Shown here in pieces: positions 7,144 to 59,184 of a stretch of DNA of 64,000 nucleotides. Both the position numbers and the translations under genes were made by a program. This DNA is from Kiritimatiellia bacterium (GTDB taxonomy: Bacteria; Verrucomicrobiota; Kiritimatiellia; CAIVKH01), in contig JANWZO010000005.1 in the NCBI GenBank assembly GCA_025054615.1, positions 62,001-126,000 on the forward strand, written 5' to 3'. The notes under the pieces are model-generated. The model saw nothing but the letters and a program-made list of their open reading frames with translations, was not told where the DNA came from and searched no databases. Position 1 is the stretch's first letter; each line of letters starts with the position of its first letter.

Positions 7144-7215
7144 TTTTTCCATGGTCTGTAAATTCCATGGAATGGAAATGGTCGCCGATTGATTTTCCAT
7201 ACGATGGAAAATTTT
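7144..7215 (+). repeat. Dyad intergenic repeat, copy A (72 bp)
   Basis: Begins with the half-site TTTTTCCAT, then G-GTCTGTAA, a first palindrome TTCCAT-GGA-ATGGAA (7163-7177), a 15-base spacer and a second palindrome ATTTTCCAT-ACG-ATGGAAAAT (7193-7212 region, nine paired bases). Aligned without gaps it is identical to copy C (59113-59184) at 56 of 72 positions, with differences concentrated in the spacer. It lies 107 bp upstream of tRNA-Lys, in the same orientation relative to its downstream gene as the other copies. Confidence 0.8.
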
Positions 7216-7278: not shown

Positions 7279-7307
7279 TTGACAAACGTGTGTCAATCTC
7301 CTATAGA
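7279..7307 (+). promoter_or_regulatory. Promoter of tRNA-Lys with overlapping palindrome
   Basis: TTGACA (7279-7284) and TATAGA (7302-7307) are separated by exactly 17 bases and end 15 bases before the tRNA: a strong sigma-70-type promoter. The -35 box is the left arm of a near-perfect palindrome TTGACAAACGTGTGTCAA (7279-7296, 16 of 18 positions symmetric). That palindrome could be an operator through which a dimeric repressor blocks the promoter (inference). Confidence 0.7.
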
Positions 7308-55821: not shown

Positions 55822-55823
55822 TG

Positions 55824-55871
55824 TCCATGCTCTGTAAAAACTTTCCCCGCGCGTTCCATTCCATGTAAAAA
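55824..55871 (+). repeat. Dyad intergenic repeat, short copy B
   Basis: TCCATGCTCTGTAA (55824-55837) matches the left part of copy C base for base, and TTCCATTCCATGTAAAAA (55854-55871) matches its right palindrome with ATGGAA degraded to ATGTAA. The first palindrome and most of the spacer are missing. It lies between murF and mraY, inside what is otherwise a tight operon, in the same orientation as the other copies. Confidence 0.6.
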
Positions 55872-59112: not shown

Positions 59113-59184
59113 ATTTTCCATGCTCTGTAATTTCCATGGCATGGAAAAGGTTCCGCGATGTTTTTCCATTCCATGGAAATTTCT
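59113..59184 (+). repeat. Dyad intergenic repeat, copy C (72 bp)
   Basis: Half-site TTTTCCAT, then GCTCTGTAA, first palindrome TTTCCAT-GGC-ATGGAAA (59131-59147), spacer, second palindrome TTTCCAT-TCC-ATGGAAA (59163-59179). The two palindromes are reverse complements of each other at 16 of 17 positions, so the element can fold either as two small hairpins or one long one. It is 56/72 identical to copy A and lies between the divergent metG and tadA genes, 70 bp before tadA. Confidence 0.8.

Follow-up and report, generated by a model that had tools for sequence, protein, structure and literature searches.

Genomes of the class Kiritimatiellae carry dispersed intergenic arrays of a 17-bp palindrome, TTTCCA-N5-TGGAAA, whose units follow one another at steps matching turns of the DNA helix, and whose half-sites are conserved while whole arrays and single units come and go. 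Judging from the sequence evidence, we consider that these arrays probably (at a probability of about 0.55) serve as cooperative binding sites for a candidate dimeric DNA-binding protein, probably one that organises the chromosome. Each 17-bp unit would bind one dimer, with half-site centres 11 bp (approximately one turn) apart; neighbouring dimers separated by three turns (31/32 bp) or two turns (~22 bp) would occupy the same face of the DNA, and those separated by 1.5 turns (16 bp) opposite faces. Phased neighbours may then contact each other and assemble cooperatively. Here we infer a protein, its dimeric state, its cooperativity and its cellular role; since the arrays lie between genes whatever those genes are, and appear to be gained, lost, lengthened or shortened with their half-sites kept, their purpose would probably be found at the level of the chromosome, in nucleoid organisation or in the marking of transcription-unit boundaries, rather than in the control of particular genes.

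The stretch of DNA analysed (64,000 nucleotides, hereafter the window) contains three such arrays only, according to a scan for phased pairs that returned 0 pairs in the reversed window and 0 at off-phase steps across the same 64 kb. Copy A (7144..7215) lies between a TRAM-domain gene and tRNA-Lys, copy C (59113..59184) between the divergent genes metG (-) and a tadA-like deaminase gene (+), and a degenerate two-site array (55822..55869; TGTCCATGCTCTGTAAA and GTTCCATTCCATGTAAA, step 31 bp) between a Mur ligase gene, probably murF, and mraY. At ≤2 mismatches, TTTCCATNNNATGGAAA matched six times in the window, against a mean of 0.15 and a maximum of 2 in shuffled sequence. An earlier interpretation made from the letters alone (the sequence-only reading) had described copies A and C as 72-bp elements identical at 56 of 72 positions in a gapless alignment, each built from two palindromes that were kept while changes gathered in the spacer. 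We reproduced the alignment exactly, and the distribution of changes was as described, with identity at 45 of the 50 positions covered by three 17-bp sites, which overlap or are in phase, and at 11 of the 22 elsewhere. The palindromes themselves stood, but their number had to be corrected, as each long copy consists of three sites, TTTCCAT-N3-ATGGAAA, at steps of 16 and 32 bp. In both copies it is the first site that has the variant right half TCTGTAA: site A1 (7146..7162) is the asymmetric variant TTTCCATGGTCTGTAAA, with right half TCTGTAAA, and site C1 (59115..59131) is the variant TTTCCATGCTCTGTAAT. The remaining sites are A2 (7162..7178; ATTCCATGGAATGGAAA, one mismatch), A3 (7194..7210; TTTCCATACGATGGAAA, exact), C2 (59131..59147; TTTCCATGGCATGGAAA, exact) and C3 (59163..59179; TTTCCATTCCATGGAAA, exact). 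A further claim, that the copies share an orientation relative to the downstream gene, does not hold in general. The genes on either side of copy C are divergent, and among variant sites in tandem gaps at other places 8 run with transcription and 4 against it, on which count a fixed orientation was rejected.

The sequence-only reading had named chance frequency across the genome and equal occurrence inside genes as findings that would count against the motif. Across the window's own genome (G000, 2.48 Mb) we found 162 sites at ≤1 mismatch, 107 of them exact, and none for the reversed pattern, which is far above chance. Sites were also nearly absent from genes: according to a simple home-made codon-model gene caller, applied to stretches many of which were picked because they bear arrays, 66 of 71 sites in the G000 stretches were outside genes and 5 inside, and in a 224-kb sample of a second genome (G013) all 89 of 89 were outside and 0 inside, although 85–88% of the DNA in these stretches is coding. 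In a third genome (G040), 13 of 57 sites fell inside called genes. Twenty G000 stretches around listed matches contained arrays of 2–8 sites, in which the usual step was 31/32 bp; steps of 16 bp occurred now and then, and 17 and 22 bp were each seen once. Numbering at least 20 and lying apart from one another, these small arrays with their 17-bp unit differ from CRISPR-like loci, which are few and consist of near-identical repeats of ~20–40 bp with unique spacers. The variant TTTCCATGNTCTGTAA had 89 matches at ≤2 mismatches and 1 in the control, and the variant half-site TTTACAGA recurred, with all 16 distinct variant-like matches at the sampled loci having another site at a distance of 16, 31 or 32 bp; such a phased, recurrent variant suggests a protein that would tolerate a degenerate half-site. 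In G000 and G013, spacer centres hold ~0–0.4 bits per position and half-sites 1.2–2.4 bits, the spacers showing an A/T preference only, next to each palindrome. With spacers uninformative and half-sites informative, the phasing is evidently kept without copying of the spacer sequence.

The steps themselves are narrowly distributed. Pooling adjacent sites from ~20 genomes, we counted 7 steps of 16–17 bp, 85 of 20–22 bp (mostly from a composite array in family f26, described below) and 293 of 29–33 bp, with 2 only at 23–28 bp and few above 33 bp; in the 224-kb sample of G013, 52 of the 53 steps under 120 bp were 29–33 bp long. Steps of 16, ~22 and 31/32 bp correspond to about 1.5, 2 and 3 turns of a helix with a 10.5-bp repeat, so that nearly all fall at the integral or half-integral turns expected of cooperative dimer operators, which suggests a protein bound to double-stranded DNA.

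A search of 84,980 species genomes with the pair pattern returned 16 stretches, of which 11 were from Kiritimatiellae and 5 from two bins labelled 'uncultured bacterium'. In a sample of 388 genomes from the phylum, all 36 of the 36 matching genomes belonged to the window's class, with 0 matches in the other classes. Within the class, TTTCCA-N5-TGGAAA was paired at 31/32 bp in 69 of 346 genomes, at up to 447 pairs each, and reversed-control pairs numbered zero among the same 346. Pairs were concentrated in families that we label f1, f7, f8, f16, f17, f21, f26 and f31 and in parts of f5 and f32, and genomes of the array-rich families hold from tens to several hundred pairs each; the large family f36 had pairs in one genome only (4 pairs), and the class-wide scan found none in f37, f10, f2 and f18. 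TTTCCA is constant across lineages, and motif positions 7 and 8 depend on the lineage, giving the forms TTTCCAAG-S-CTTGGAAA in f7, TTTCCAAT-S-ATTGGAAA in f26, TTTCCATG-S-CATGGAAA in f1 and TTTCCATT-C-AATGGAAA in genome G030. If the arrays bind a protein cooperatively, this preservation of exact helical phasing across families, despite turnover of spacers and positions, would bear on how dispersed binding-site systems originate and persist.

Turnover is visible at closer range between two sister species of f26, G079 and G080, both represented by metagenome-assembled genomes (MAGs), in which the flanks of arrays are ~93–99% identical. The G080 arrays in loci L127 and L123 are absent from the matching places in G079 (L134 and L135), other arrays are shared, and one array is longer in one species than in the other by one 31-bp unit, an indel that preserves the phase. 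Across six aligned orthologous arrays from this one MAG pair, where calling sites at ≤1 mismatch introduces some bias towards conservation, changes affected 2 of 372 positions in the twelve half-site bases, 4 of 155 in the five core bases and 19 of 241 in the spacers (half-site versus spacer, Fisher p = 1.1e-6). The sequence-only reading had left a choice between selection on the palindromes and recent copying; selection is supported by the contrast of 2/372 with 19/241, and gain or loss of whole units is borne out as well, at least in f26. Over a wider range, arrays of different genera do not share positions (159 arrays, ~20 genomes). In f26 (genus g53) the arrays of G080 (L120–L133, L143–L153) follow a standard composite of ~157 bp with steps 22-30-31-31-22; its spacers are related, A/T- and GC-rich inverted sequences flank it, and it resembles a miniature mobile element (MITE).

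With placement and turnover established, other explanations have to be weighed. A global transcription regulator, with the arrays as its operators at nearby promoters, would account for copy A, downstream of which a likely tRNA-Lys promoter can be picked out by eye, and for copy C between divergent genes, and cooperative regulators typically have phased operators. We nevertheless regard this as improbable, and as a general role it was rejected, because in G013 sites occupy convergent gaps (45%) as often as divergent ones (43%), and 20% of tandem gaps; arrays overall are distributed roughly as the gap types are (37 tandem, 15 divergent and 10 convergent, where the gaps number 115, 34 and 26). 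No neighbour gene family recurred beyond scattered matches among 496 proteins around 159 arrays in ~20 genomes, on which a recurrent neighbour gene as partner was also rejected, and a promoter scan reported none in the tRNA gap. The presence of arrays in all gap types, together with the lack of a recurrent neighbour family, argues against a promoter-tied regulon. More doubtful still is that the units act in RNA, as hairpins or bidirectional transcription terminators, the second of the two possibilities (dimer-protein array or RNA hairpin) between which the sequence-only reading had not chosen. In its favour, each unit can form a hairpin with a stem of 7 bp and a loop of 3 nt, the predicted fold of copy C is better than those of shuffled sequence (z about -4), and one or two sites take up almost the whole of some very short convergent gaps, of 23, 28 and 52 bp (L096:2919, L100:4405, L100:19460). 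If the stems were functional in RNA, however, the stable G-U orientation would be expected on the sense strand, and among asymmetric units in tandem gaps it was seen 19 times in sense and 29 times in antisense. The recurrent variant TTTCCATGSTCTGTAAA, with its TCTGTAA half, disrupts the stem; copies A and C have different folds, that of copy A being weak; the gap holding copy A is without a terminator-like site; the step lengths follow the DNA helix; and an Rfam search of the window matched tRNAs only. In the absence of strand bias, a common fold or an Rfam match, the RNA or terminator role was rejected, and the helically phased steps, the near-symmetric sites and the lack of strand bias favour the protein array over the hairpin.

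Harder to set aside are selfish REP/BIME- or MITE-like extragenic palindromes, which would spread by transposition or copying, be purged from genes after insertion and inherit their phasing from master copies; this is the strongest rival, although we think it unlikely. Speaking for it are the arrays present or absent at otherwise 93–99% identical sites (L127/L134, L123/L135), the spacers, step order and inverted flanks shared genome-wide by the f26 composites, and the different homogenisation of positions 7 and 8 in each lineage. Against it, spacer centres in G000 and G013 are essentially uninformative with half-sites near invariant, and orthologous half-sites change ~15 times less than spacers, where a neutral copy would decay evenly; this contrast argues least strongly in f26. 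REP and BIME sequences are short extragenic palindromes with more than 100 copies per genome, often in regularly spaced clusters, and BIMEs are bound by gyrase, IHF and Pol I (PMC2817692). The arrays resemble them in being high-copy, short and extragenic (162 sites; 0/89 and 5/71 in genes). Whole units of such repeats would be mobile or duplicated; here, array presence/absence and unit indels were seen in a comparison that does not polarise their direction. They differ in their spacer-independent helical phasing, in their near-symmetric 17-bp units and, in the printed arrays and the information profile, in having A/T flanks on both sides and no terminal tag of the GTAG/CGTC type described for REPs (PMC3733652). 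Nor do Y1/RAYT transposases track the arrays in a family-level search: one MAG (G050) has 33 pairs and no such transposase, and many array-free genomes have 5–20. A separate REP-like repeat co-occurs with the arrays, at L108:6370-6468 (G079:C7), where a dispersed element of ~100 bp carries inverted GC-rich palindromes, GGACGCGCGGAAGCGCGTCC ... GGTCGCGCTTCCGCGCGACC, with many copies in G080. That the arrays serve recombination, rearrangement or DNA uptake, lastly, seems a very remote possibility. Synteny with G079 stops exactly at several G080 arrays, but in an array-free control stretch of 16 kb (L108:3700-20000) almost every intergenic gap is also a break in gene order relative to G080, the pieces being mostly 93–97% identical; breaks at arrays are therefore not special, and the role was rejected. 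Only 3 array-bearing stretches (L116, L117 and L118, contigs that may be phage or host DNA) were found in the IMG/VR collection, which also speaks against it; on this count a phage origin of the arrays was set aside too. The gene-order breaks between the two MAGs stem from rearrangement on an extreme scale or from an artefact of the MAGs.

Some observations count against the protein array as well. Array positions are unconserved between genera and whole arrays are absent in a sister species, which suits a selfish element too, and the 157-bp composite of f26, with its related spacers, is MITE-like. Among candidate partners, none of the Y1/RAYT transposase, ParB-N, HU and Rho domain families tracked the presence of arrays in family searches of 44–56 genomes, and all four were rejected as partner or correlate. 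The extra ParB-family protein expected of a ParB/Noc-type system was not seen, carriers and non-carriers alike usually having one or two ParB-N matches.

The arrays can also be compared with other known site systems. The chromosome-organising proteins Noc, SlmA, MatP and ParB bind dispersed palindromic sites (NBS, SBS, matS and parS, respectively), and the Kiritimatiellae arrays share with these their dimer-sized palindromes scattered genome-wide, independently of gene identity. To our knowledge, such sites do not typically form intergenic arrays of 2–8 units phased at 31.5 bp, and the difference from ParB/parS extends to the protein, since carrying arrays does not go with having an additional ParB paralogue. 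Iteron and partition centromere arrays are short, helically phased repeats for cooperative loading; the likeness lies in sites repeated in helical phase, and the difference in that they occupy one or few loci per replicon, in contrast to many small arrays across the chromosome. The IclR operator, TGGAAATNATTTCCA, has the hexamer TTTCCA/TGGAAA in common with our motif, but its half-sites are in the opposite orientation and it is a single operator, not an array. Searches of the open-access full-text literature by sequence and keyword returned no earlier description of the motif.

If cooperative protein binding is correct, a class with few cultured members would have sequence-defined docking sites at gene boundaries throughout its genomes, and the arrays would offer ready bait for finding the protein that binds them. 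A bolder proposal, which we put forward only tentatively, is a chromosome-organising or transcription-boundary system confined to Kiritimatiellae, in which a dimeric protein without a described counterpart would occupy three-turn-phased arrays at up to ~45% of convergent and divergent gene boundaries, its sites mobile yet under selection.

Close to copy A, just upstream of tRNA-Lys, a promoter-like pair can be recognised by eye, TTGACA (7279-7284) and TATAGA (7302-7307) at a spacing of 17 bp, a pair that the consensus scan did not report, as its second hexamer does not end in T.
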